Source: Calliopum simillimum | Taxonomy: Eukaryota > Arthropoda > Insecta > Diptera > Lauxaniidae | Length of the DNA stretch: 64,000 nucleotides | Direction of reading: 5' to 3' | Assembly: GCA_951812925.1 (NCBI GenBank) | Contig: OX638372.1 | Span: forward strand, 72,185,407-72,249,406 | Part shown: positions 2,902 through 60,890 of the stretch, in pieces | Numbering within the stretch: the stretch's first letter is position 1 | Layout of the letters: each line of letters starts with the position of its first letter | Translations under genes and position numbers: made by a program | The notes under the pieces: generated by a model | What the model was told of the DNA's origin: nothing | Database searches by the model: none | Seen by the model: only the letters and a program-made list of their open reading frames with translations

Positions 2902-3708
<807 letters not shown>

Positions 3709-3746: not shown

Positions 3747-5131
3747 CTAAGTAGTCGACTTCCGTACATCCAATTTCGCCAACTTTGCAACGGGTCGTGT
3801 GAATGTGCTAGATGCTGTTCGTACAGTTGCGCTTCTCACATTTCTATCTTTGGCTTCATACACCGTTTCAACAATACCCAGTGGCCAATTGTTTCGCGGT
3901 AAATTCGGATCTACTATAACAACTATGTCGTCAATTCCAATAGGAGAAGATTGAACCCAACGCTTCCAAAACAAATTCGCAAAGTACTGTACCTTTCTCC
4001 ACTTTCTTAGTGATAAGTCGTCTGTAGTAAATTCACCTAAAGGTTTATTTCCGTTTGATGACCCAAGAATGAAGTGGTTCGGTGTTAGAGCTTCATCCGT
4101 AACGGATTCTAAATCGACATATGTAAGAGGGCGAGAATTAATGATGCGTTCGCATTCGAGAAGTGCATTATACAAAGTGTCTTCTTTGAAAATAAAATTC
4201 GGAGTGATCTGGTAGAGAGTTTTTTTAACAGTTTGAATCAATCTCTCCCAACTACCTCCCATATGTGGCGAGGCTGGAGGATTGAAGTACCATTTTGTTG
4301 AAGATGTGCTAAATTTATTAGCAATGTTTGAAAAATTTATATCCTTAATAGACTTTCTCAACTCAATTTCAGCTCCTCGAAAGATTGTTCCGTTGTTGCA
4401 ATATATTGATATTGGAGTACCTCGTCTTGCTATAAAGTTTTGAATGGCCATGATGCAGCTATCTGTCGTCATGTCTCTTGCAATTTCAAGATGAACTGCG
4501 CGTACAGTGAGACATGTAAAAAGCACACCCCAACGTTTTTCTTCATGTCTAGCAACTTTGACACGAATAGGACCATAGTAGTCGAGTCCAACATGTGTGA
4601 ATGGACGTGTAAACGGTGACAGCCGGGCTTTCGGCATTTGTGCCATTTCAGGAACTTTTGGTGTAGATGTGTTGTTTTTACAACGTTGACAATTCCTTCG
4701 TACCTTTTTAAGTTCGACTCTTAGGCGAGGTATGTAAAATTTTTGACGAATTTCGTTGAGACAAGTGTCATGATGAATATGATGAAATGCTTTATGGAAA
4801 TGTCGAATTAAAAGACTTGTGCAGTAATGGTCCCTTAGTAAAATAATTGGTCTTTTTACGCATTCAACTACTTTAGTTGCCAAATCAATCCTTCCATACA
4901 TTCGAAGTACATCGTTTTCGTCAAGATAAGGAGAACATTGTAAATTATGCTGGTCTTCGCTATGTCTTCATTTTTATTTTTCAATACCGCTATTTCGTCT
5001 TTATAGAAATCGTACTGGATTTGCCGGTAGAGATAATTTTCGGATATTGCCAACAGCTCTGATTTTTCTGGAACACAACTATGCTTCAGCTTGTAACAGA
5101 ATGTAAACAATTTGCAAACTATGTTAAGCAA
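3747..5131 (-). pseudogene. BEL integrase
   Basis: Two frames (4868-5131, 3747-4901). The zinc-binding N-domain shows RHFHKAFHHIHHDTCLNEIR and CQRCK. The catalytic core has GLDYYGPI (first Asp) and GGSWERLIQTVK (Glu). The second Asp position reads IYCNNGTIF, where BEL integrases normally have SDNGT, so the middle catalytic residue appears to be Asn. The C-terminus (PRNNWPLGIV...) is the usual BEL end. Inactive as it stands. Confidence 0.85.
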
Positions 5132-5159
5132 TTTTCCCCAGGAAGTGAATCTATGGTAG

Positions 5160-6991
5160 TCAATGCTTGTGAACCAGCAACAAATGCGGTCTTAACTCTT
5201 CAGAAGGTTGTGAAAATTCGGGTCCTTTCTCAGGCCATGAAAGTTCTGGTTGCTTCAAAAACTCAGGACCAGTGAACCATCTGCTCTGCATATCGATATC
5301 AAATTTTGCTTTCAATTTTGTGGCGTCATCTGCAACGTTAGCTTTTGTTGGAACATATCTCCATTCTGAAATTTTGGTGCTTTCAAGAATTTCTCCAATG
5401 CGAAACATCACAAACTGTTTATAGTTTCTTGGATCTGCTGTCAGCCATGCTAGAACTAATTTCGAGTCGCTCCAAAACCAACGTCTTTCAAAAGTTATCT
5501 GATGCATGCTACATATAATATTTGCTAAGCGGGCACCAAGAACCGCTGCCAGAAGTTCCATGCGTGATATTGAAACTGGTTGCTTTGGGGCTACCTTTAC
5601 TTTTGCACTCACCAAGGAATACTGAAGTACGCCTCCAGAATTGACCAAAAAGTATCCGACAGCAGCATAGGCTAATTCGCTTGCATCAACGAATATATGG
5701 AGTTGAATAGAAGAATCAACCGTTATCTGGTACCATCTTGGAATCTTGGTATTTTCAATAGTTGGCAAAAGTTTCACCCAAATAAGCCATTTTCGAAATG
5801 CATCGTCAGTTATCTCATCGTTCCAGCCATCTGTAGTTCTCCACACTTCTTGTAAAATAATCTTTAAATAAACAACATAAGGTGACAAGAAACCAAGTGA
5901 ATCAAATACAGACATTAAGGTTCTCAATACTTCTTTTTTTGTAGGCTTTCTATCTCCAGGTAGGAGCTCATTATTAAGTCTGTTCAGTTTTAAGGAGTAC
6001 GTAAAGTTATCAGTTGCAGTTGACCACCACATTCCCAGTACTTTTTCAGTTGACATTTGGATATCTTGATTACCAAAAGAAATACAATTTTGTTCTTGTA
6101 ACTCACCGAGGTTTTCCATAACGACCTTAGAGTTTGATTTAAAATTCCTGATGAAGAAGCCTCCTTCACTGTGGATAAAAGCCACATCTTTTGCCAACTT
6201 TATAGCTTCGGATTCTGTGTCTGCACAATCCAAAAGGTCGTCGACATAGTGATGATTTATTATTGAGTCAACTGCTCTTGGATATTTTGCGTTAAACTCA
6301 TCGGCATTTCGATTCTTTACGTACTGCGCCGAACAGGGAGAGCATGCTGCACCAAAAGTCATAACCTGCATAACGTAGATGTACGGATTCCTGTTGTCTT
6401 CGTTATTTCGCCAAAGAAATCGTTGAGCACTTTGGTCTTCTTTTCGGACTAGCACCTGATGGAACATTTCCTTGATGTTTCCACAAATGGCAACTTTTCT
6501 CATACGGAACCCACATAACACTGACAGTAGTGGAGCTGTTAAATCTGGTCCTTTGAGTAGCATTGAATTCAAAGATGTTCCTCGTACCTTTGCAGCAGCA
6601 TCCCAAACTAAACACACCTTACCAGGTTTATTGGGGTTGGTAACTGTAAAGATTGGTAGATACCAAATGACACCACCTCCTCGTCACTCAATTTTCGCGC
6701 ATATCCTTTTGTGACTAAATCGTCAATATACTTCGTTAACACTGGAATGTGATCAGGACTTAACTTTTTCTCTAAGCAATGAAGTCGTCTCAAGGCCATG
6801 GGGTAACTATTTGGAAATTCTGTAAGTTTTGACTTCCAAATTAGTCCCGTTTCAAAACGTTTCCCAATGCGTTTAGTAGTGGAATGCATTACTTCTTTTG
6901 CTCGTGCTATGTCTGGTGCCTCTATGTCAATTCTTCTTCCAAAGTTTTCGAGTGAGAGGTATTCGGATACAATATTGTGTAACTTTTCCAT
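5160..6991 (-). pseudogene. BEL reverse transcriptase and RNase H
   Basis: Two frames (6608-6991 and 5160-6617) joined by one frameshift near 6650. The N-side has LYxEKKLSPDHIPVLTKYIDD-like sequence. The RT core has CLVWDAAAKVRGTSLN, the BEL-specific FHQVLVRKEDQSAQRFLWR and the catalytic YVDDLLD. RNase H follows with DASELAYAAVGY and the active-site segment SRMELLAAVLGARLA, then WSDSKLVLAWL. All catalytic Asp residues I can see are intact, but the frame is broken. Confidence 0.88.
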
Positions 6992-7048
6992 CTCATAGTC
7001 GCAATCACATTGCTCATAATTGTGGATGTTAAGGGCGCTATCACTTGT

Positions 7049-8278
7049 TTAACCGCCACCATGCACTACCCAACCAAGTCTTGTCTTGGATGCACTTGGA
7101 TCTGTGGACTTTCCTTCGGCAGTCTTTAAAGTATTGCAGACATAGCCGTTATTTAGACCAATTAGAATTTTAGGTTCTGCTTTAACATACGGCAAATATG
7201 GGATCTTCTTTAAATGGCTAAATGAGGACAACTGCTGTTTTGTGGCGCTTTGAACTGGCAACGCCAATTGATCAACTGTGCGCACATCAAGTAATTCAAA
7301 TTTCTTAGCATTTTCCTCACGTGCAGATACCCAAACGCAAACTTGCATTGACTCATTTTCGGTTCTTGACGTATTAGATGTCCACTTTAAGAAAAGAGCT
7401 TTTGGTTGCCCTTCTAGGCTAAGTTTATCGCAAACCTCTTTTACAATAAGCGTTACATTGGAGCCATCGTCTAAAAATGCATAGGTGTCTACAGATGTAC
7501 CTTTGTGATGCAAAGTGACAGGTAAAATTTTGAAATATGTATTCATCGTATAGTTAGGACAAGAATGGGCGCTGACTCTTGTGGGATCTCTTGCAAATTT
7601 ATGAAGAAGTTTGTTGTGTCTAGCTTCACAGCCTTCTACTGAACATTTATCTTTAGAGCAACGGAAGCTACCATGGTTTTTGAGGCATAAACGACATAGA
7701 TTAAACTTCTTTACCATGTCCCATCTTTTCGTTAACTTCATTGCAGTAAACTGGCTACAAGATTCAACATAGTGTTGCTCGTCACATATCGGGCATCTAT
7801 TTTGCACTGCATTCTTTTCCGACTCATGTGCATGTAAACTTCCACTGCTAAATTTTAAAGGAAACAAAGATGAGCTCACCTGTGAAACAGCTTCAGCGAC
7901 ATTGTATAACCATTGCGAAAACATTGAAATATTTGCATCGCGATCAATGATATACATAGCCCAATTGAGTTTCGTTTGTGCGGGTAGTTTGTCCACTAGT
8001 TCTTGCAGAAGTAACTGGTTATTCATGTGTGCGTCTAGACCTGAAGCCTCCATTGTAGAACACAGGTTCCTCACCAATATTGCATATGAAACGAGAGTTT
8101 CAAGCTTATCTGCCTTCGGTGCTGGTTCGGAGCGGATTTTATCAAGCATAGAGTTTATTATCACACTAGGCCGCCCAAACATCATTTTAAGCGTTTGTAT
8201 AATTTCGGGAACGTTCGTTGGCAGCAAAAGATGGCTACTCACAAGCTCATATGCCTTTCCCTTAAGGCATTTTTGCAA
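7049..8278 (-). pseudogene. BEL Gag C-terminal part and aspartic protease
   Basis: Overlaps the upstream Gag fragment in a different frame (about 40 bp). Carries the zinc-knuckle block CPICDEQHYVESC...CRLCLKNH...CSKDKC...CEARHNKLLH typical of BEL Gag-Pol, then the protease active site AFLDDGSNVTLI (D-D-G-S). It ends with TRLGWVVHGG, a conserved BEL segment leading to RT, where a TAA interrupts the frame. The same frame continues past that stop toward RT. Confidence 0.85.
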
Positions 8279-8889
8279 TCGCAGGAGATTTTCAGCTGAA
8301 GAATATCCACATATTTTAGTGCTTTCTTGAAAGGAACTATAAAACAGCGGCCACTCCTCAGGTTTGCCGTTGAAAGTGCTTGCCTTGCAGCTAACTGAGA
8401 GTTAGATATAACTAAATCTTCCTCTTTCGAAGCGATAGGAAATGAAAGTTTTGAAACCCATTCTCTGGTTCGGTCTGGTGCATGACTGCAGCTTCCTTTT
8501 TCTTCGATTTGCTTTTCACTGCCAGCAGATAAGATCTCAAATTTTTTCTGCAGATATTTTTGCTCCAAAGCCTTTTCTTCTTCAAGGAGCTTTAACTCAA
8601 GATCTATATTGCGGCGTTTCGAAGATCTTGTTGAGCATAATGAGAAAGTCTTTGTTCCTCTTTCAACGCGTTCATTTTTGTGATCCTCCATTTTGTCTAA
8701 AGGTGCTGTTTTGCTATTGCACTTGTAGCATTTCCATGGCTGATCATTGATTGTAGCATCGACTCCGGCGCATTCAAAGTGATACCAAATATCACATTTG
8801 TCGCATTGGACCATCTGCATTGAATCTTCAGCCTTGCACTGGCCACAGCTAAATGTCTTTCGAGCTGGAGGAGCTCTGAACATTTTCAC
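8239..8889 (-). pseudogene. BEL Gag N-terminal part with PHD finger
   Basis: 216 residues from the ATG at 8889. Near the N-terminus is a textbook C4HC3 PHD finger: CGQC, then CDKC, WYHFEC, and W-K-C-Y-K-C, with all eight ligands in place. A charged coiled-coil-like stretch follows (ELKLLEEEKALEQKYLQKKF). A short distance downstream the frame breaks and Gag continues in another frame at 8278. PHD fingers usually read histone H3 tails; in a Gag this could steer integration or nuclear retention, which is inference only. Confidence 0.8.
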
Positions 8890-8926
8890 GTTGACGGATT
8901 TATAATTTCAATTTAATTTTGAAGAA

Positions 8927-13130: not shown

Positions 13131-13489
13131 TGATTCAAATAAGATAATTTTTCTGCCTGTTTCATTCTGGACAATCGATCAATTGGTCATATAAAAATTA
13201 TACATGTTACTTCGCAATTGTCTTTTAAAAGAATAATTTTACCTAAGTATTTGCGGTTCAATTACCAAATTATATATCATTCCACACTTAAATCATTTCA
13301 TGAAAGAATGTACATACTAGGTGTACAAATATGAAACCGGTAATGACATCTAGTGGTCGATAGCCGTATATGTATGAGCTTCCGAACTGTACCAAATGTC
13401 TTAATTGTTCATTCTGTCATCGGTCAACAATATTCAGTTCACAATTTGTCAAGTTTCATACAACAACGCATTTTTTCTGCTCGTAAAGA

Positions 13490-14037
13490 TGTCGAATTTT
13501 GTGCCTGAAAACTCTCATTTGCGGGAAGCGTTGATTTTCTGTTTCCATTTAAAGAAAAACGCTTTTGAATCGCATCGAATGCTTATCGAAGCTTACGGCG
13601 AGCATGCTCTTGGTCGTACACAGTGCAATGAGTGGTTCAATAAATTTAAAAGTGGTGATTTTGATGTGATAAATGAGGAGCGCGGCCGGCCACCGAAAAA
13701 GTTCGAAGACACCGAATTGCAAACATTATTGCACGAAGATGATGGTCAAACGCAACAACAGCTTGCTGAACAACTTAATGTGACACAACAAACCGTTTCC
13801 TTGCGTTTGAAGGCCATGGGAAAGATTTTAAAGGTCGGTAGATAGGTGCCACATGAACTAGCCGACAGGCAGCAAGAAAACCGAAAAACCACTTGTGAAT
13901 TGCTGCTCGCCAGGCAAAACAGAAAAGGTTTTCTCCATCGAATCATCACTGGCGATGAAAAGTGGATTTATTTCAACAATCCCAAACGAAAAAAATCATA
14001 TTTGAGCCCCGGCCAACGACCCAAATCAACGCCAATG
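13490..14037 (+). pseudogene. Mariner transposase, N-terminal half (mauritiana-like)
   Basis: Begins at the ATG at 13490 (MSNFVPENSHLREALIF). HTH and linker follow: FKSGDFDVINEERGRPPKKF, then LAEQLNVTQQTVSLRLKAMG. A TAG at 13843-13845 stands where mariners have Trp (GRWVPHEL), a single-base change. The frame resumes with VPHELADRQQENRK and reaches the first catalytic Asp (IITGDEKWIYF). It stops at about residue 183, where the inverted copy of the gene start begins. The second and third catalytic residues are missing. Confidence 0.88.
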
Positions 14038-14769: not shown

Positions 14770-17320
14770 AAATCAGGGTTTGATCTGCTGACTATAAAAT
14801 AGCTATAGCAACGAAAATTTGCTGAACTGTGCTGCGTCAGTTATTGCGATTTACATTTTGGGCTTACTGCTTGCTGTGCTTTTTTTCAACGATCGAAGTC
14901 AAAGCAATTCAAGCAAGCACATTTTTGTTTTTGTGCTCTGCTATTGCTTTTGTTATTGAAAATAGCAAAGTTTTAACCAAGCAAGCACAAACACGAAGCG
15001 AAGCGTAACTCCAATTGTGCTTTTGCTTTTTATTTAACTCGGCTCACAGTGCTGTCACTCCATACAACGGAACGGCATTTCCACAATTTTGGTTCGATTT
15101 CAATAAGATTTACCATACTGATACATTTTTTTACGTTGTTTTCAGAAATGCAATTAATTTTTAAATGCAATGAATAGAACAAAAGATATTCAAATAAATA
15201 AAACCACGAAAGTTAACTGGAAAAAATGTTTGTGCATCCTTTTAGGCTGTAAAAACCATATTAAAATTTTAATAGTTCATAGTGTTTTTGACATATAAAA
15301 GTATGCTGTAAAAAAAAATCAAATTTAAAAAAATTCAAAAGCAATTGAAAAAAATTTTGTGGTGTAAATTTTATAAAATCATTGATTTTTACGTAAATAC
15401 GGGATATTCAGATAAATATTTAAAGTAAACGGGGAAAAACGGGGTTGTGAATTTTTCCTATATTAAAATATGGAATGTGTACTATCTGTACGTTTTATGA
15501 CAATGCCCGCATGTCCCATCTTTTTTTTTCCTGCTCTAAAGAAAATTAGCATTTTCCGGTTTTTAATAATTGAAAACTTTTTTTTTATATTTTTTAAAAT
15601 AACTTTAATTTGGCTAAAAAAATTTGCAAACAAAAAATATTAAAAATAAATGGATATGTAGGCTTTTGTATGCATTTTATTTTATAACAATTGCTTTTGA
15701 GGTTTAGGAGCAGCAATTATTTTTAAAAAGTTATGCGATTAGCAAATTTTCTTACTTGATTTCTTTTCGAAAAAAAATTCGACTTTAATAAGCTGTAACA
15801 CTTACAAATCACACTAGTTTTCAATAATTTTCAGGGAATTTCTTAATTGGACTATTTGCTGTAGAATGGCATAAACAAAATTTTAAATTTGAACAAAAAT
15901 TTTGTACGCAAATGCCTTCTATCGCAGCACTGTGCGGCTGTTTGAACTTCGGCTTTTCGCTGTACACAGCAGAAACAACTTTCAGGATTGCCACATGTTT
16001 TTTTTTTTAAATTTGCTTAAACCATACATCTCACCTGGTTTTTTAAAAAATCAAAATTTTCTTTCAATAAATTGCTCAAATCATAATTTTTTCTCTATAA
16101 ATTGACATCTTGGGTCCAAAAACGACGAAACAAAAATTTAGGGTTGCCATATTAGGGTTGCCAGACTTTTTTTCGCAAAATTGCATTCCTTTGTTAACTT
16201 TCTTTATTGAATGTTGTAGAATCGACCCAAGAACCCATAGTAAATTTTTTGGGGTTGCCGCCTGGTTTTTTTTAATAAAATCAAAGTTTTTTTCAATAAA
16301 ATGTTTAAAATCATCATTTTCTCTCTATAAATTGAAATCTTGGGTCCAAAAACGACGAAACAAAAATTTAGGGTTGCCATATTAGGGTTGCCAGACGTTT
16401 TTTCGCAAAATTGCATTTCTTTGTTAACTTTCTTTATTGAATGTTATAGAATCGAACCAAAAACCCGCAGTAAATTTTTTGGGGCTGCCACCTGGTTTTT
16501 TTTAATAAAATCAAAATTTTTTTTTGGGGTTGGGGTGGTATTTTGCAAAAAAAAAGTCTGGCAATCCTAATATGGCAACCCTAAATTTTTGTTTGTCGTT
16601 TTTGGACCCAAGATGTCAATTTATAGAGAGAAAATGATGATTTTAAGCATTTTATTGAAAGAAATTTTGATATTATTAAAAAAACCAGGTGGCAACCCCA
16701 AAAAATTTGCTATGGGTTTTTGGGTCGATTCTATAACATTCAATAAAGAAAGTTAATGAAGAAATGCAATTTTGCGAAAAAACGTCTGGCAACCCTAAAA
16801 TTTTGTTTCGTCATTTTTGGACCCAAGATGTCAATTTATAAAGAGAAAATGATGATTTTTAGCAATTTATTGAAAAAAAGTTTTGATTTTATTAAAAAAA
16901 CAAGGTGGCAACCCTAAAAAATATGTTAGATTTTTTAAAAGTTTATCTAAGCGGTTTAAGGCTACAATAATTATTTTTTTTTTTAAATGTACGGTTTAAG
17001 CTAATTTTACAAAATAAAACCAGGTGACAACCTGAATGTTTTTGTTTCCTTTTGCTATTGCTTCGTTCTCTTTCGAAAAGCATAGCGGCAGCGAAGCAAA
17101 CATTTTGAAATTATCGACTTCAACTGTAGCAGCAAGCGATCGGATTTCGTAAAAGAGCTTCGGCTCTGCTACTGCTTATGAATTGAAAAAACAGCACAGC
17201 AGACAGTTCAATTTTAAATTTGTGCTTCGACTGTAGTGCTGTGCTGCGTAATTTTTCTATAGTCGCAGAACAGCAAATCAATAGGCTAAAAAATAGCTCA
17301 GCAAAATCAAACCTTGTTTT
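14770..17320. mobile_element. Large foldback composite element
   Basis: The two ends are inverted, diverged copies: left AGGGTTTGATCTGCTGA..., right inverse of TCAGCAAAATCAAACCTT. Both continue into GC-rich segments full of AGCAAGCA/AGCACA words (14820-15060 and 17050-17290). The centre holds inverted tandem repeats (16080-16925). No transposase was found. The outer boundary and nature are inferences. Confidence 0.5.
16080..16925. repeat. Four copies of a ~230-bp unit, two forward, two inverted
   Basis: The unit contains CTTGGGTCCAAAAACGACGA, GGGTTGCCATATTAGGGTTG, TTTCTTTATTGAATGTT and a GGTTGCCGCCTGG-type segment. Two head-to-tail copies start near 16095 and 16325. From about 16545 the same unit runs inverted, again about twice, to 16925. 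The whole block is a palindrome centred near 16540 that could fold into a long hairpin. The short ORFs here are by-products of the repeat. Confidence 0.85.
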
Positions 17321-21501: not shown

Positions 21502-21971
21502 CTACCTCTTTTTCTCTTGCTTTGATTTTCTCTTCAAATTTCACATCTCTTGATAATATAACTTTTCTCTGTTCTTTAATATATATCCTGTATCTTTCAT
21601 CTTCGTCGTATCCAATTAGATATCCTTTAGAGGCCTTTGGATCCATCTTCGCCTTTTTTTCTTTTGGGATATGAAAGTAGCATTCACTTGTAATGATCTT
21701 TAAGTGTTTGATCCTTGGTTTCTTGCCTTTCCATAACTCATATGGACTTTTTAAGTCATCTGAAGACTTTCCAGTACGATTTAATATATAAACTGCTGCA
21801 TTGATTAGTTCTGCCCAAATCGCTTCTGGAAATGTAATATCTGAATTTGAGTATTTAAAAGTTCTAGCCATTTCTACAATCGTTCGATTGTCTCTTTCAC
21901 TGGCACCATTTTGTTGTGGAGTGTAAGGTGCAGTTAATTTTTGTGTGATTCCATTCATATTTAGAATTCTC
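21485..21971 (-). pseudogene. Copia integrase C-part
   Basis: Continues the integrase after the insertion: RILNMNGITQKLTAPYTPQQ, with NGASERDNRTIVEMART carrying the catalytic Glu of DD35E. The GKKPRIKHLK and GYLIGYDEDERYRIY segments typical of copia follow. A TAA at 21485 and an overlapping frame (open from 21501) show a one-base frameshift before the RT. Confidence 0.9.
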
Positions 21972-22110
21972 AAAATGGTTTATGTTGACTATATGAAAAT
22001 TATACTAATTTTATGAACTTTAGTCAATGTTTTGCAAGAATCGAAAATTCCATGCATTTTCCAACTTAGAATATTATGACAATTAGGAGAAGAGAAAAAA
22101 CTACTGAACA

Positions 22111-22165
22111 TGGCTATGGTGACATATGTTTCGGTTACCGCCACGTAACCATCATCAGACCAATT
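22111..22165 (-). ncRNA. Hammerhead-ribozyme-like motif, unit 1
   Basis: Minus strand: TGGT-CTGATGA-T-GGTTAC-GTGGCG-GTAACC-GAAA-CATATG-TC-ACCA. The conserved CUGAUGA and GAAA are present, stem II has 6 perfect pairs, stem III is very short and stem I begins with 4 pairs (UGGU/ACCA). Predicted cleavage after the C of UC, between 22121 and 22120. One unpaired U sits between CUGAUGA and stem II, unlike the textbook core, so activity is uncertain. Confidence 0.55.
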
Positions 22166-22650
22166 TATGTTTTATTTAATTTATTTTAAATTAAATGAAA
22201 TAACAATTGAAAAATTTTTTTTTTTTTTTGAACTTTTTGTCTGAGGCCGGGATCGATCTATGAACCTTTCGAAATCAATCTCTCTACATAGCGCATTTAT
22301 CAACGGACTGCGCTGTGTGCCCTCGGAAAAATTGGTAGCTTAAGTGCCTATATGCATGTAGCGTGGTTTCATTCTCTATACTCCTTTGACATCATTCATG
22401 TTGTGTTTGTTTGGTAAGGCTCAGCCATTGGCTGAGAATCAATACCGTTATATTATATGACTGACAAGTGTTGCCAGTTGCACATATTTGGCGTGTTCTC
22501 CATGATTACTTAAAATGGTTTATGTTGACTATATGAAAATTATACTAATTTTATGAACTTTAGTCAATGTTTTGCAAGAATCGAAAATTCCATGCATTTT
22601 CCAACTTAGAATATTATGACAATTAGGAGAAGAGAAAAAACTACTGAACA

Positions 22651-22705
22651 TGGCTATGGTGACATATGTTTCGGTTACCGCCACGTAACCATCATCAGAC
22701 CAATT
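22651..22705 (-). ncRNA. Hammerhead-ribozyme-like motif, unit 2
   Basis: Identical to unit 1 at exactly 540 bp spacing. Cleavage at both would release a 540-nt monomer from a tandem transcript. Confidence 0.55.
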
Positions 22706-23267
22706 TATGTTTTATTTAATTTAATTTAAATTAAATGAAATAACAATTGAAAAATTTTTTTTTTTTTTGAACTTTTTGTCTGAGGCCGGGATCGATCTAT
22801 GAACCTTTCGAAATCAATCTCTCTACATAGCGCATTTATCAACGGACTGCGCTGTGTGCCCTCGGAAAAATTGGTAGCTTAAGTGCCTATATGCATGTAG
22901 CGTGGTTTCATTCTCTATACTCCTTTGACATCATTCATGTTGTGTTTGTTTGGTAAGGCTCAGCCATTGGCTGAGAATCAATACCGTTATATTATATGAC
23001 TGACAAGTGTTGCCAGTTGCACATATGTATTTGGCGTGTTCTCCATGATTACTTAAAATGGTTTATGTTGACTATATGAAAATTATACTAATTTTATGAA
23101 CTTTAGTCAATGTTTTGCAAGAATCGAAAATTCTATGCATTTTCCAACTTAGAATATTATGACAATTAGGAGAAGAGAAGAAAAAAAAAAAAAAAAAAAA
23201 AAAAACAAAAGTATAGAGAATGAAACCACGCTACATGCATATAGGCACTTAAGCTACCAATTTTTCC

Positions 23268-23352
23268 GAGGGCACACAGCGCAGTCCGTTGATAAATGCG
23301 CTATGTAGAGAGATTGATTTCGAAAGGTTCATAGATCGATCCCGGCCTCAGA
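23268..23352 (+). promoter_or_regulatory. tRNA-like pol III module (A and B boxes)
   Basis: A-box-like AGCGCAGTCCGTTGA at about 23278-23292 and B-box-like GATCGATCC at 23334-23342, about 45 bp apart, as in tRNA-derived SINEs. Located upstream of the hammerhead-like core on the same strand. The two tandem units carry the same module on the minus strand at 22242-22326 and 22782-22866. Confidence 0.5.
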
Positions 23353-23419
23353 CAAAAAGTTTAAAAATTTTTCAATTGTTATTTCATTTAATTTAAAATA
23401 AATTAAATAAAACATAAAT

Positions 23420-23465
23420 TGGTCTGATGATGGTTACGTGGCGGTAACCGAAACATATGTCACCA
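23420..23465 (+). ncRNA. Hammerhead-ribozyme-like motif, inverted partial unit
   Basis: Same sequence on the + strand: CTGATGA 23424-23430, stem II 23432-23437/23444-23449, GAAA 23450-23453, UC 23460-23461. No change in the core relative to units 1 and 2. Confidence 0.55.
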
Positions 23466-23594
23466 TAGCCATGTTCAGTAGTTTTTTCTCTTCTCCTAAT
23501 TGTCATAATATTCTAAGTTGGAAAATGCATGGAATTTTCGATTCTTGCAAAACATTGACTAAAGTTCATAAAATTAGTATAATTTAGAATTCTC

Positions 23595-24847
23595 TTCACT
23601 TCCATGTTATCGAATTCACCTCCATTATCGCTTAAAAATTCTTTGATACGATGACCTTCCGTTTTTGCGAATTCTAAAACTTCTTTCAGCTTATCCTTTG
23701 CTTCTGATTTTTCTTGTAAGAAGAAACAATATCGGAACTTAGTGTATGCATCTTTAAAAATTATGAAATACCTTTTCTTGTTAAAGGATTCCGGAAATGG
23801 TCCGCATATATCAGCTGATAACAATTCGCCTGGAATAATTGTTCTTGGTTTTATTCCAAATGGTTGACGATGACATTTTCCCAATATGCAGGACTCACAA
23901 ATACTGCTATCCATCTTGATGTTGATTCCTAATTCTTTCTCAAGCATTTTCTTAATGTGACGTTTATCTTGATGTCCCCAACGTTCATGGTAAAGTTGAA
24001 GCATCGAATCTTTGCAAAATGTAGAGTGGGCTTGAACTCCACATTCTGGCAAAACTGCTCTAATATTTGCTTTGAATAAACTTCCGTTTAAATCTCGTGA
24101 ACCTTGAAGTATTCTTTTTCCTTTTATCGAAAGCCAGCAATTTGTTGAAGTTGACTTAAATTCACTGTCTTGATTTCTGTCTTGGGCTGCTAGTACTGAA
24201 AACAAATTTCTGGATATATCTGGAACGTACCACACATCCTTTAGAGTAAGAAATATTTTTTCTTTATTAACTGTTGAAACAATTTTTACTTCGCCTTTGC
24301 CAACTGCATTTAAAAGTTCTTTTCCTGCCGCCTTAATGCAACACGCACTTTTAAATTCCTCAAATGACCTAAATAAGCTGAAGTCATTTGTTATATGTCT
24401 GGTTGCTCCATTATCTATCCACCAATCTGATAATTCTTGATCAACTGAATGAGCTTCACCGCAGATTAAGTTAAGAGCAATGCTCGTCTCATGTGCTATG
24501 GATTTGATTTCACCTTTATTAGCTTTTGTTGGTCTTCCATCACTAATCCACTTTCTGCATTCCCGAACCCAATGTCCTTTTCTTTTGCAATAGTTACATT
24601 TATCATTTTCTTTATCGTCCTTCTTTTCATATTTTTGGTAAGATTTCTGTTTTTTCTTTTGCGATTTTATAAAAAATGCCTCATGATTTTTGTTTTCAAC
24701 AGTCTTTCCAAAATTTCTTTCAAACATGCAGAGTTGGTTAGTCATCTCTTCAAAATTTCTGTCTTCATTTTTTGTAAGCAGCATCCAACTTGATTTGAAA
24801 TTCTCATATTGCAATGGTAGAATTTGCAAAATTTTACATACCAACAA
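23595..24847 (-). pseudogene. Copia Gag knuckle, protease and integrase N-part
   Basis: Reads in order: Gag C-terminal helices, zinc knuckle CNYCKRKGHWVRECRKW, protease DWWIDNGATRHITND (where copia usually has D-S-G-A; here D-N-G-A), GAG-pre-integrase LYHERWGHQDKRHIKK and CESCILGKCHRQPFG, then the integrase core with SADICGPFP (first Asp) and FLSDNGGEFDN (second Asp). The frame is cut at RILN by the insertion at 21972-23581 and resumes beyond it. The altered protease motif may already impair the polyprotein. Confidence 0.9.
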
Positions 24848-25577: not shown

Positions 25578-25615
25578 GTTTCAACCAATTTAAGATTTTT
25601 TTTTTTTTATTTCAG

Positions 25616-25938
25616 GGGGAACTGAAAAGCGATCGCATGCTTTAACACCTGTCGAAAGAAAAGTAATCGCTTATCATGAATCGGGACATGCTTTAATTGG
25701 TTGGCTGTTACCGAACTCCGATATTTTATTAAAGGTCACGATTGTTCCACGAACTAGTTTAGCACTGGGGTTTGCCCAATATACACCCAGCGAGCAACAA
25801 CTTTATACCAAAGATGAACTCTTTGATAAAATGTGTATGGCACTTGGTGGGAGAGCTGCGGAAAGTGTAACATTTAATCGAATCACCACAGGAGCTCAAA
25901 ACGACTTAGAAAAAGTTACAAAAATTGCATACTCTCAG
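25616..25938 (+). CDS. SPG7: Paraplegin exon: zinc metalloprotease domain
   Basis: One base carried over from the previous exon plus 323 bases gives 108 codons, ending in phase 0. It holds the M41 protease active site HESGH (zinc ligands His and His, catalytic Glu). The motif [20 protein letters not shown] follows, then [12 protein letters not shown], and [12 protein letters not shown], which carries the third zinc ligand Asp. The acceptor follows a long T tract and the exon begins 39 bp after the right LTR of the copia element. The donor is GTAATT and the next intron is just 53 bp. Confidence 0.96.
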
Positions 25939-25991
25939 GTAATTTACTTAAATGTATTTAACTTAGTTACCTTTATACGTGCGTATTTCAG

Positions 25992-26183
25992 ATAAAAAAG
26001 TTTGGTATGAATGATGTTGTTGGGCCCGTGTACTTCAGTGATTCTGATAAAAACAATTCGATTGAGAAACCGTTTTCAAAAGCATTGGAAAGTATCATAG
26101 ATATTGAAGCAAGGAAAACTGTTGAATCTGCTTATAACAAGGCAGAAGAACTTTTAATAAACAATAAAGACAAATTGAAAAAG
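25992..26183 (+). CDS. SPG7: Paraplegin exon: C-terminal helical part of protease
   Basis: 64 codons, phase 0 at both ends; acceptor TTTCAG, donor GTTTGT at 26184. Reads [15 protein letters not shown] near the start, then a charged helical stretch with [17 protein letters not shown]. This matches the helical tail of M41 proteases that packs beneath the catalytic domain. It is linked to exon 25616-25938 by a 53-bp intron and to the final exon across 12.4 kb. Confidence 0.93.
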
Positions 26184-33043: not shown

Positions 33044-33947
33044 TTGGGTGCACAACTTAAAAACCGGAATTTGACGGTGGATGTCCGTACTAACAAATAT
33101 CGTGAAAGCTCGAACTTTATATATATGTCATTTTGAAGGTACATTTGACAGCTGTCAAAATCAGTCAACAAAACAATTTTATCTTGTGTGCATTATTATT
33201 ATTTTTCACGATGAATAACTTCGAAAATTGGAGAAAAAGACAGCATTTGCGGGAGGTTCTGTTGGGTCATTTTTTTGCAAAGAAAACTGCTGCGGAAAGT
33301 CATAGTTTGCTTGTAGAAGTTTATGGGGACTATGCTCCAGCTGAATCAAGCTGTCGTGAGTGGTTTCGACGGTTTAAAAGTGGTGATTTTGATGTCGAAG
33401 ACAAAGAACGTCCTGGTCAGGACCAGCTAGGTGTGATCCATTATGAGCTGTTGCCAGGTGGCCAAACCATTAATGCTCAACTCTATCGTCAACAATTGAT
33501 CCGATTGAAGCAGAAAATCCAGGCAGAGCGGCCAACGTATGCGACCAGATACGAGTCAATCATTTTCCACCACGATAACGCTCGGCCACATATTGCTGCC
33601 CCAGTCAAAAATTACCTAGAAAACAACGGATGGGAAATCTATACAAATTTTGCCTCACCCGCCTTATAGCCCAGACCTTGCACCATCAGACTACCATTTG
33701 TTCCGATCAATGCAGAATGCCCTATCAGGAATACAGTTCACTTAAGTTCAAGATATCGAAAATTGGCTCGATTCATTTTTGGCCGCCAAGCCGGCCCAAT
33801 TTTTTTGGGATGGAATTCATAAATTGCCTGAAAGATGGGGAAATGTTGTAGCTTCCAATGGACAATACTTTGAATAAAATATATTGTAACATTTTTCCAC
33901 AACAAAGCATCAAATTTCGCTAAAAAGTTTTTAAGTTGTACACCCAA
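33044..33947 (+). mobile_element. Internally deleted mariner nested in the Tc1-like element
   Basis: Inverted ends TTGGGTG(C/T)ACAACTTAAAAAC with TA on both sides (33042-33043, 33948-33949). About 900 bp, shorter than a 1.3-kb mariner because the transposase gene is missing its middle. It splits the Tc1-like gene at a TA, so it is younger. Confidence 0.88.
33211..33669 (+). pseudogene. Mariner transposase with internal deletion
   Basis: From ATG 33211: LREVLLGHFFAKKTAAESHS, WFRRFKSGDFDVEDKERPGQ (HTH and linker), then directly DQLGVIHYELLPGGQTINAQ and IIFHHDNARPH (second catalytic Asp). About 120 residues that carry the first Asp (TGDEKW) are missing but the frame is preserved, so a shortened protein of 152 residues could be made. 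A stop at 33667 precedes the DLAPSDY block, which follows in another frame. Confidence 0.85.
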
Positions 33948-34559: not shown

Positions 34560-35932
34560 GCTCTGTAACTCATCAAAATGAGGGAGTAGCCTGATCAAAG
34601 TTGAGCAAGTGTGCAATTTGTGGAGGGCGACAATTGAGCTTTTTATTGAGTGCCAGCGATTAAATAGCCGAACAGGCAAGGTGCCGATGCAAATCATTGA
34701 GGGCATCGCGGATAGTTCCAGGGTCCCAAGAGTCAGGCAAAAAGTTCACAATGGCTTTCCTATGTCACCCCGGAAATCCACCCTAATACGCCTGTGTGGC
34801 TTTGGTTTACTGACAACCCGATAAGATGGATGTTCAGGGTTATGGCAGATCAGAAGGAACTGCTGTGTTAATAGGGTGTTGTGTGGTTCGACTTTTAGGA
34901 GCCCCGTCTCATTATGCAGGTAATCTGGATCGGACATAAGGTGACAACCGGTAGCTGTACGCAGGGCACTATTTAGTCTAGATTGGAGGTTGCTCCACTG
35001 TGTTTTGCTGTTTCGATCAGGGTCTCCATATCCTTTCCCCATGAGGTTCCGGCAACGGCACTCAGCACACGGTTTCTCTTACTCAATTTAGAGCAGACCT
35101 CACTTGCGTGGCTGGAAAATTTGTATAAGTTATCTAGTGTCACCCCGAGGATTTTCGGATACTTTATGGTAGGTATTCGGTCATTATTTATATGGATGTT
35201 GAGGGTTTGATTTACCTCGCTAGTCCATGAAGTGAAGAGCGCCGCGGAGGATTTTTGCGTGGCAAGTTGTAGTCTTCGGTCTTCGAAGAACTGCTAAAAG
35301 ATACGCATTTATCTTCTGCTCAGCCTCCGAAATTGTTTTGGCTGAGACCAAAGTGACCTCGGACGGAGGGGGTGGTTAACAGATAGAAATTAAAAAGCAG
35401 AGGCGAAAGCACACCCTATTGCGGCACGCCCATCTTAAGTTTTCAGAATTCAGATCTAGCGTTTCCAAATTCCACTAAAGCCCGTCTACCATATAAATAG
35501 AAACCTTTTGGTTTTGACGGGAAGGGTCGTGTTGAGAAGATCTGCAAGGAGGATGTCAAGGTCGACAGTGTCAAAGGCCTTTGATAGATCTAGTGCCTCT
35601 GCAATCGTTCGCTGATGCGGCCTTTTGCAGTTAAGACCCTCTGTAATTACAGATGTGATCTCAGCCAGTGCGGTGGTGGTGCTATGGTTCTGTCTGAAGC
35701 CATGTTGATGGCCAGCGAGTTTAAGGTGCTGCTGAAGTTGCGGCAGGAAAAGTGCTTCCAGCACCTTCACAGCAGGACATAAAACTGAAATGGGCCGACA
35801 TGAAGTGCCCAAGTCAGCAGGCTTGCCCGATTTAATTATAGGGACTACACGGGCATCCTTTCACACTGCGAGCGATGGTGAGGTTGCAGATCTCTGTGAA
35901 ATAACGCATGGCCGACGGAGGAAACTTCTTCA
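34560..35932 (-). pseudogene. LINE reverse transcriptase fragment (jockey-like)
   Basis: Minus strand, several frames. 35486-35812: CRPISVLCPAVKVLEALFLP, HGFRQNHSTTTALAEIT, LDLSKAFDTVDLDILL (first catalytic Asp). After it a GVPQ*GVLSPLLF motif near 35410-35440 is followed by the C-terminal part. 34746-35042 has GKGYGDPDRNSKTQWSNLQS and later segments. The YADD part lies in decayed sequence near 35300-35400. Stops and frameshifts; 5'-truncated. Confidence 0.75.
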
Positions 35933-43520: not shown

Positions 43521-44164
43521 ACTAGTAAGGGTGTAAATTATGGCCTGGCTAAAAAATAAATACCCTACACTGCAGTATTTTGAAAATTTTGCTTATATGA
43601 GAGTTGCCACGCCCTCTTGTCCGAGTACACCCAGTTTTTGTTCAGAGCTTGCATTTATAGTTTTTAGTGTCAGAGTGAAATTTAGTTGGATTATCTCAAA
43701 AAACTTTTTCAGTATAGCATTTTGAAACTTTTGCTTATATGGGAGGTGCCACGCCCCCTTGTACGATTTCAACCAATTTTTGCTGAGAGCTTTCATTTAT
43801 AATTTGTAGTGTCTGAGTCGAAGTTGGTTCGAATATCTCAAAAAACGCTTTCAGTATAGCGTTTTGAAGCTTTTGCTTGTATGGGAGGTGCTACGCGCTC
43901 TTGTCCAAATTCGTTCAGTTTTTTATCAGAGTTTGCGCTTACAATTTGTAGTACTTATGTGTATTGTGGTTGCATTGTCGTGAAAAATACTCCTAAAATT
44001 GCATTTTGAATATAATTTTTGTATGGGCGGTAGGCGTGTCTGTTGACCGATTTTGCTCATTTTCAATCCCCCGAGCTAACTTTGACGACGGAGGCAGTGT
44101 ACCAAATTTTATTGAATTATGTTGCTCAGTTTTCCCAAAAAGTGTATTTCAACACACAGCCAGC

Positions 44165-55378: not shown

Positions 55379-56237
55379 TTATACCCTACACCCAGGGTAT
55401 ATTCACTTTGTCCTTCCGTTTGAAACGCAGAGAAGGAGGCGTGGCAGATATAGAAAAGTATATATATTCTTGATCAGCGTCACCTCCTGAGTCGATATAG
55501 CCATGTCTGTCTGGCTGGCTGGGTGGCTGGCTGGGTGGTATATTGCCTTCGTCGTCAAAGATAGCTCGGGGGATTGAAAATGGGCCAAATCGGTCAACGG
55601 ACACGCCTACCGCCCATACAAAAAATATATTCAAAATGCAATTTTAGGAGTATTTTTCATGACAATGCAACCAACATACGCATAAATACTAAGAATTGTA
55701 AGCGCAAGCTCTGAGAAAAAATTTAACGAATTCGGAAAAGAGGGCGTGGCACCTCCCATATAAGCAAAAGCTTCAAAACGCTATACTGAAAGCGTTTTTT
55801 TAGATATTCGAACCAAATTCGACCCAGACACTAAGTATCATAAATGAAAGCTCTCGACAAAAATTGGGTGCAATCGGACAAGGGGGCGTGGCACCTCCCA
55901 TACAAGCAGAAGTTTCAAAATGCTATACTGAAAAAGTTTTTTGAGATAATCCAACCAAACTTCACTCAAATACTGAAGACTATAAATGCACGCTCTAAGC
56001 TAAAACTAGACGAACTCGGACAAGAGGGCGTGGCACCTCCTATATAAGCAAAAGCTTCAAAACACTACTGAAAACGTTTTTCACTCAGACACTTAAAACT
56101 ATAAATCCAAGCTCTGGACAAAAACTGGGTGAACTCGGACAAGAGAGCGTAGCACCTCCCATGTGAGCAAAATTTTAAAAATACTGCAGTGTAGGGTATT
56201 TAATGTTTGGCCAGGCCAAATTTTACACCCTTACTAG
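55379..56237 (+). mobile_element. Helentron/Helitron-like repeat, copy 3 (full)
   Basis: Starts TACCCTACACCCAGGGTATA, has the GGCTGG minisatellite, then five or so ~150-bp units with (A/G)AGGGCGTGGCACCTCC cores, the TTTGGCCAGGCCAAA hairpin (56208-56222) and CTTACTAG. Inserted in gypsy protease sequence. Copy 1 and copy 2 share both ends or the 3' end. Confidence 0.82.
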
Positions 56238-59989: not shown

Positions 59990-60890
59990 TGTGCATACAC
60001 CCAGCCAGCCAAACGGACATGATTATATCAACTCAAGTTTATTCTTGAATATTGATGTGGTCCCCTTCAAAGTAATTGCCATCGACTGCCACGCACTTAT
60101 GCCAGCGCTTGATCCAGCTCTCACAACATTTTTGATACTCAATTTTCGGTATGCCCATCAGTGCCGTTTTCGATTTTTGTATTATTTCCGATCGGCTGCT
60201 AAAACGCGTTCCGCGTAGTGGTTTTTTCCGTCGATCGAACAAAAAAAAGTCACAGGGAGCTAAATCTGGCGAATTTGATGGCTGCGGAATTGTATTAGTT
60301 GAGTTTTTGGTGAGAAACTCACGGATAATGATGGCATTGTGCGACAGTGCATTGTTGACGGTCTGCTTTTCTGGCGAAAATTCGTTGTGTACAATACCGT
60401 TGTAATCCATGAAAACCGTGAGAATTACCTTCTTTTTCGACTGAAAACGACGTGGTTTTTTCGGCCTTGGCCCATCGGGGAGTCGGCATCATCTCGCCTG
60501 ATGTCTGGATTGAGTGTCGTACTCGTAAGCCCACGTCTCGTCACCAGTACTGATTTTGGCATTGAATCCATTTTTAACACAAAATTTAATACACACACGT
60601 TGTTGCAAAATTAAATCCATTGCAAAAATCGAAATTCGCAAAAAAAAAAAAACAGATACATTCAAAGTTGCGTTACATTTACAATTGCCAAGCTAGGAAG
60701 CTGAAATTCGCAGGGAATATTGTTAAAAAATTGTAATCGGACAGCAGGGGGCGCCACACGGTGATGATTCCGGGAACTTTTTGATCAAGGTAGTATACAT
60801 ATAATTTTCCATACCTGCCCTGTCACGCCTTCTTCTCTACGTTACATACGTAAGAACAATGTGAATATACTCTGGGTGTAGGTAATAACT
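59990..60890 (-). mobile_element. Helentron-like fragment split by a mariner
   Basis: 59996-60037 (CAGCCAGCCAAACGGACATG ... ATATCAACTCA) and 60790-60890 (TACATATAATTTTCCATACC ... TCTGGGTGTAGG) are adjacent in copy 2 (44200-44340). The mariner between them interrupts the repeat, giving relative ages. Confidence 0.75.
60038..60789 (-). mobile_element. Mariner-like element, internally deleted
   Basis: Minus-strand frames: 60039-60410 has MDYNGIVHNEFSPEKQTVNN and NSPDLAPCDFFLFDRRKKPL, then WIKRWHKCVAVDGNYFEGDH, the mariner C-terminal half. Upstream, GDETWAYEYDTQSRHQ-like sequence (first Asp) is read in other frames at 60490-60560. One end is TTGATCAAAAAGTTCCCGG. The N-terminal HTH is missing. 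Confidence 0.82.

Follow-up and report, generated by a model that had tools for sequence, protein, structure and literature searches.

A copia integrase in the genome of the lauxaniid fly Calliopum simillimum is interrupted at 21972-23581 by a 1,610-bp insertion built of direct and inverted copies of one short unit. Positions are those of the window, the whole stretch of 64,000 nucleotides that was analysed (contig OX638372.1, 72,185,407 to 72,249,406, forward strand). The locus raises the question of what kind of element makes such an insertion, and of which machinery would have placed it in the chromosome. The initial annotation, made from the letters alone, saw in it a non-coding retroelement with a promoter and a ribozyme of its own, mobilised in trans. 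For the mobilisation of animal retrozymes, the accessible text of a 2020 study names Penelope only as a strong candidate (PMC7229834).

Methods

The sample of genomic copies comprised 57 clusters: 40 loci (L039-L078) among the matches listed of 937 places, all on one contig, 16 further loci and the window. These 16 were taken from 29 loci (L010-L038), of which the remaining 13 belong to the same arrays, and the edge-cut loci L019 and L025 were dropped. A search for genome copies by sequence scored 40 of 1708 candidates. Copies were picked by exact or near-exact match to the ribozyme core, which leaves old copies under-sampled and core conservation biased; random change of the core among copies can be judged solely outside it, the copies being selected by core. 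Clusters with fewer than 120 matched nucleotides, and matches to the A-run only, were excluded at the first tabulation. Published work is cited from its accessible parts.

Results

Anatomy of the insertion in the window

When the flanks are joined with one copy of the 13-bp target duplication ATTTAGAATTCTC, a single unbroken copia integrase frame results, so that 21972-23581 is an insertion into a copia element (Pfam). The left (21959-21971) and right (23582-23594) copies of the duplication match perfectly, and the repeat match and the rejoined frame together confirm the perfect duplication within copia integrase that was first annotated. The host copia element itself has exon-like frames of an AAA/M41 protease on either side (2902-3531 and 25594-25995; Pfam). 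Its best-scoring relatives from named animals are those of Zeugodacus, Ceratitis and Musca, at 50-52% identity, and a plant entry, at 38% identity, outscored them.

The insertion consists of tandem unit 1 (21972-22511, 540 bp), whose outer end corresponds to unit position 149 (a long end), tandem unit 2 (22512-23054, 543 bp), a third unit that is 5'-truncated and has no ribozyme (23055-23180), an A-tract at the head-to-head junction (23181-23209), and an inverted partial unit of 372 bp (23210-23581), whose outer end corresponds to unit position 120 (a short end). The succession of two near-identical head-to-tail units, truncated third, A-tract and inverted partial unit thus stands as originally described. 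The orientation needs correction: the tandem units and their ribozymes lie on the minus strand and the inverted piece on the plus strand. Between the two full units, the differences are an insertion of 4 nt, one A and one substitution, and the A-run of the inverted arm is 10 nt shorter than that of the tandem arm. The unit has 33.9% GC, and its fold as a whole beats all 100 shuffles (z -3.10).

Elsewhere in the window, remnants of a BEL/Pao element and of mariner-type transposases were identified at 3747-8907, 13405-13845, 33106-33669 and 60039-60488 (Pfam). Tandem repeats of 142 bp with similar sequence (GGAGGTGCCACGCCC) lie at 43577-43952 and 55684-56081, apparently in opposite orientation, and a 230-bp AT-rich tandem repeat of 2.2 copies, in which a scan found no hammerhead motif, lies at 16032-16523.

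A rule for the outer ends of genomic copies

A search for other copies had been proposed with the initial annotation, and it yielded 937 ribozyme cores with a free loop II in the 690-Mb host genome (468 and 469 on the two strands), with many near-identical copies; a reversed control pattern of the core had no match in that genome. Among the matches listed, opposite-strand neighbours within 2.7 kb formed 17 pairs, counted by eye, and all were minus then plus, that is, head to head.

In the 57 clusters, 42 were head to head, none was tail to tail and 15 were single-strand. One outer end fell at 108-130 (near 123) and the other at 147-156 (near 151) in 39 of the 42 head-to-head clusters, and the window insertion, with ends at 149 and 120, obeys the same rule. 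By end classes set after the first tabulation had been seen (short, 100-135; long, 140-162), no head-to-head cluster had two short ends, none had two long ends, and three (L052, L061 and L068) fitted neither class. The 57 clusters count L068 and L074 twice, both being split by inserts (1,498 and 2,044 nt); once merged by hand, each has one short and one long end, which gives 55 insertions, 43 of them head to head and 41 with a short plus a long end, L052 and L061 being the remaining exceptions.

The short end was on the left in 19 of the 39 clusters and on the right in 20. Target duplications measured 10-16 bp in 37 of the 39 and 8 bp in one, and in one none was found; random placements gave a duplication of at least 10 bp in 1.1% of 840 cases. 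The target is AT-rich and the duplications are about 13 bp. With the short end set to the left, TTAAA or GTAAA directly followed the duplication in 9 of 26 insertions.

Likeness to Penelope insertions

The end pairing, the duplications and the head-to-head anatomy match the published "tail" signature of Penelope. A rotifer Penelope insertion has two direct pseudo-LTRs (pLTRs) and one inverted, together with a 9-bp duplication and, at one inverted end, a tail of 31 bp; pLTRs apparently sufficed to integrate a foreign gene (PMC3846280). Furthermore, a purified Penelope protein from the anole cuts and extends both strands, and its reverse transcription begins internally, at two neighbouring sites by which the tail is defined (PMC11167929). 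In that system mutation of the hammerhead did not prevent insertion in vitro, and the start sites were alike on both strands (PMC11167929); it therefore lends no support to a need for the ribozyme or to a rule of one site per strand.

No frame with reverse transcriptase (RT) plus GIY-YIG is present within the unit, whose longest reading frame is 60 aa; two unit frames had no relatives in a protein database, and one unit had no match among plasmids and phages. Among the 26 window ORFs of at least 120 aa, Pfam shows no GIY-YIG, and RVT_1 is confined to a Pao frame and one unassigned 124-aa fragment at 35486-35860. As the anatomy is Penelope-like and a reading frame is lacking, we infer a Penelope-type mobilisation in trans.

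The same likeness would also arise if the units were pLTRs of an autonomous Penelope in the same genome and the arrays its internally deleted copies. Hammerheads are found in Penelope pLTRs, which form tandems accompanied by an inverted copy and a tail (PMC3846280, PMC11167929). Counted from the start of the ORF, the hammerhead of the anole element cuts at 26 nt and reverse transcription begins at 111-118 nt, which by arithmetic puts about 85-92 nt between them (PMC11167929); the ends of the present element lie 108-156 nt downstream of the predicted cut. However, Penelope hammerheads are described as minimal, without helix III or loop contacts (PMC6155905, PMC7761336), and the present motif has a palindromic helix III and an internal loop in stem I. 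Moreover, foreign sequence longer than 66 nt separates matched unit pieces in only two of the 40 loci L039-L078: the insert of L074 (2,044 nt) has, by eye, a LINE-type endonuclease-like frame, and that of L068 (1,498 nt) resembles a DNA transposon. We regard the pLTR reading as rather unlikely.

These two loci are of interest in themselves. In L074 (1563-4481), a 14-bp direct repeat encloses two retrozyme arms and, between them, about 2.0 kb with the LINE-type endonuclease-like frame, an apparent capture from read-through RNA to judge by this layout. The insert of L068 (156-1653) interrupts a retrozyme unit exactly where the cut is predicted; an 8-bp direct repeat stands at its edges, its inverted ends are similar, and it is probably a nested DNA transposon.

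Templates and subfamilies

Whole units within one array differed by 0.77 substitutions and no indels (13 pairs, 6 of them from L019), and whole units of different insertions by 3.65 substitutions and 0.99 indels (136 of 153 pairs, those with fewer than 40 substitutions). Opposite arms diverged by 0.43% within an insertion (n=11) against 1.64% between insertions (160 pairs) in subfamily A, and by 0.85% (n=4) against 3.7% (31 pairs) in subfamily B. The arm comparison left out L042, L052, L061, L076 and arms shorter than 60 nt; the arms of L042 and L076 align poorly, with 78 differences in 395 and 88 in 207 positions. These figures suggest one template per insertion, and unequal exchange or conversion could also have made the arrays uniform. 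Since the arms extend from the end past the cut site, the template was uncut there, which means a circle or an uncut multimer. We do not assume a single circle behind every insertion: the 4-nt difference between units and the 10-nt difference between A-runs in the window insertion contradict its simplest form, and the 2.0 kb of LINE-like sequence in L074 is not expected from a one-unit circle.

Loci L039, L041, L044, L053, L056, L062, L072 and L073 make up a second subfamily that is about 86-91% similar to the window unit and obeys the same end rule. In 21 of 27 intervals of 20 nt, subfamily B (12 insertions) has diverged by 5-51% from the unit in the window. Divergence is low at 461-500 (1-2%), at 121-140, between both ends (1.3%), and at 361-380 (1.3%).

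A hammerhead motif in each full unit

A hammerhead motif is present on the minus strand in unit 1 (22104-22173; core at 22158, predicted cut between 22121 and 22120) and unit 2 (22644-22713; core at 22698, predicted cut between 22661 and 22660), and on the plus strand in the inverted unit (23409-23478; core from 23424, predicted cut after 23461). The three motifs are identical across 70 nt and read, in unit sense, AACAU-AAAU-UGGU-CUGAUGA-U-GGUUAC-GUGGCG-GUAACC-GAA-AC-AUAU-GU-C/ACCA-UAGCC-AUGUU, where the slash marks the predicted cut. Around the core stand a 6-bp stem II, a stem I of 4+5 bp with an internal loop, and a 2-bp stem III, whose ACAUAUGU is self-complementary. The core has the type I features CUGANGA, GAAA, H17 and the pairs 1.1-2.1, 10.1-11.1 and 15.1-16.1, and deviates by one extra U between A9 and 10.1, that is, between CUGAUGA and stem II; an extra U after A9 reportedly raised the rate of a viroid hammerhead 3-4-fold (PMC3705267). 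The core, 6-bp stem II, GAAA and tiny stem III are thus as initially noticed; the U had gone unmentioned there, and the third unit carries no ribozyme.

In simulated DNA with the dinucleotide make-up of the window, comparable motifs (at least 6 pairs in stem II, 2 in stem III and 4 in stem I) occurred 7 times in 1.98 Gb, a chance of about 4 in a million per unit, both strands counted. The motif therefore exceeds chance. A covariance-model search, named as a check in the initial annotation, came out negative, which is one of the outcomes listed there as speaking against the reading: Rfam gave no hammerhead match for the window element even at E <= 10, in a search that had no positive control, nor for the loci of 14 relatives at E <= 5. 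Viral and genome contigs, searched with the ribozyme and box-region patterns, gave 7 loci in one search and 1 locus in another, none with a pairing stem II.

Folded alone, the 70-nt stretch prefers another hairpin (-17.0 kcal/mol) over the hammerhead (-10.5). Two copies paired through ACAUAUGU form a hammerhead dimer of -32.8 kcal/mol, close to the value for two alternative hairpins; this dimer is not the best two-strand fold, which is a self-dimer of the alternative fold (-38.7). Of 9 lengths of a growing transcript between 43 and 67 nt, stem II belongs to the best fold in 8 and is absent at 52; at 70 nt it is lost, and several of the folds that have it include pairs within the hammerhead core as well. 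A short helix III with a palindromic loop is known from axolotl and mosquito repeats and is thought to act as a dimer (PMC7229834, PMC3088659); an Aedes hammerhead of consensus and dimer type was inactive in vitro (PMC3088659).

The hammerhead likeness might be incidental, and what is conserved might be a simple hairpin or a binding site, as the silence of Rfam and the greater stability of the 17-bp alternative hairpin in the monomer would allow. That hairpin, however, is no better than those of shuffled sequences (z -1.27; 23 of 200 as good), and the motif is rare in simulation. Furthermore, the inner arms of stem I, which lie outside the search pattern, are kept in subfamily B (0 of 125 positions changed; 1 of 63 copies changed overall) while most of the unit differs by 5-51%. 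We concede that conservation does not extend to the outer part of stem I, where 19 of 90 positions on the 3' side have changed in subfamily B without compensation. An incidental likeness appears improbable to us; the element carries a type I hammerhead-like motif, for which self-cleavage and circles are predicted.

Promoter and route of insertion

The tRNA-like promoter and pol III transcription of the initial annotation did not hold up. The A/B-box-like stretch on the minus strand (22249-22315) is not above chance: its score of 13 of 17 was matched or beaten by 95.4% of 2,000 random 540-mers and is reached elsewhere within the same 540-bp unit. ARAGORN found no tRNA in the window and Rfam no tRNA family in 21900-23650 at E <= 10. 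Between the box-like stretch and the ribozyme lies A15 followed by T5 (22210-22229, minus strand), and a T6 run (22635-22640, minus strand) lies 20 nt past a predicted cleavage site. In 51 of 63 genomic copies the 110 nt ahead of the ribozyme contain an A-run followed by T4 or more, and in all 63 a run of T4 or longer comes within 35 nt after the predicted cut. Given these T runs around the ribozyme, a pol III transcript would hardly span the unit of 530-540 nt. The box region also diverges by 10-23% between subfamilies in three of four 20-nt intervals, the fourth (361-380) by 1.3%. On the negative ARAGORN and Rfam searches, the equal scores of random 540-mers and the T runs, we rejected this promoter. 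Published retrozymes reportedly have no promoters of their own and depend on read-through (PMC7761336).

The same results make it very improbable that the element is a tRNA-derived, pol III-transcribed SINE with a hammerhead, the model of the initial annotation, for which schistosome Sm-alpha, a fusion of tRNA-Gln-like sequence and hammerhead (PMC2770079), is the precedent. What favours it is the order of box-like stretch, A15 and ribozyme, and an 8-nt direct repeat that flanks the first two; a shared word of that length turned up in 33 of 1500 random pairs and in 6 of 180 placements within the unit. The repeat itself, AATTTTTC, stands on either side of the box-like stretch and A15 (22210-22333) and perhaps marks an old nested SINE-like insertion; that a tRNA-derived SINE is nested in the unit between the two copies of AATTTTTC is only weakly indicated.

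LINE-driven insertion with twin priming, which also yields inverted segments, is the least probable account and was rejected as the main route: a 4-nt ATTT overlap at one junction of the window insertion would suit it, but it predicts variable inner starts, whereas 39 of the 42 head-to-head clusters rely on one and the same pair of sites, about 28 nt from each other, with one site per arm and either way round, and no A-tail stands at the outer ends of the 26 insertions compared. Mobilisation by Penelope or LINE, as originally put forward, would thus be narrowed to the Penelope type, in keeping with the anatomy (39 of 42 with paired ends, 37 of 39 with duplications).

Discussion

We consider it quite probable that the element is a non-autonomous, non-coding retrozyme of the metazoan type whose RNA, circular or multimeric, is copied in trans by a Penelope-like enzyme. 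Read-through transcripts would provide multimers that fold into hammerheads, probably dimeric ones, and monomers released by hammerhead cleavage could circularise. An enzyme of Penelope type, encoded elsewhere, would then cut both target strands and prime one cDNA on each, at two neighbouring starts in the same RNA; copying would run around the circle or along the multimer, and both cDNAs would finally be joined at their heads. The strict form of the pairing, in which two cDNAs come from one circular or multimeric hammerhead RNA, one per strand and one per start site about 28 nt apart, is a proposal whose chances we would put at about even.

Metazoan non-LTR retrozymes (PMC7229834) likewise consist of non-coding tandem units with a hammerhead of type I, are poor in GC, lack LTRs, have target duplications exceeding 4 bp and, as in the axolotl, show a weak helix III with a palindromic tetraloop. 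Their published units measure about 150-450 bp against 529-543 bp here, which lies outside that size criterion; the present core has an extra U, and the accessible text of that study does not mention head-to-head short and long ends. Penelope-like elements (PMC3846280, PMC11167929) share the partial tandems, the inverted terminal copy, a tail of about 30 nt at one of the inverted ends, the AT-rich target and a hammerhead upstream of the RT starts, but the present element has no RT or endonuclease frame. Schistosome Sm-alpha (PMC2770079, PMC8490949) is also a non-coding repeat with a type I hammerhead, and differs in that the element described here has no supported tRNA-like promoter. Among insects, the pDo500 satellite of cave crickets (PMC2808323) is a repeat with a hammerhead, and the hammerheads of Aedes repeats (PMC3088659) are dipteran, with a palindromic stem III, and may need a dimer. 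Interspersed insertions with target duplications, as shown here, set the present element apart from both (PMC2808323, PMC3088659).

In the limited open-access literature searched, we saw no report of one-short, one-long pairing for any retrozyme. The 937 ribozyme cores and the near-identical insertions make mobilisation in trans testable, the prediction being that the enzyme begins reverse transcription near unit positions 123 and 151. The pairing of one short with one long end constrains the poorly known mechanism of Penelope and would fit a dimeric enzyme holding one RNA. If the strict form of the pairing is true, the retrozyme would be a clean natural record both of the Penelope pairing rule and of the mobilisation of a retrozyme by a Penelope enzyme.
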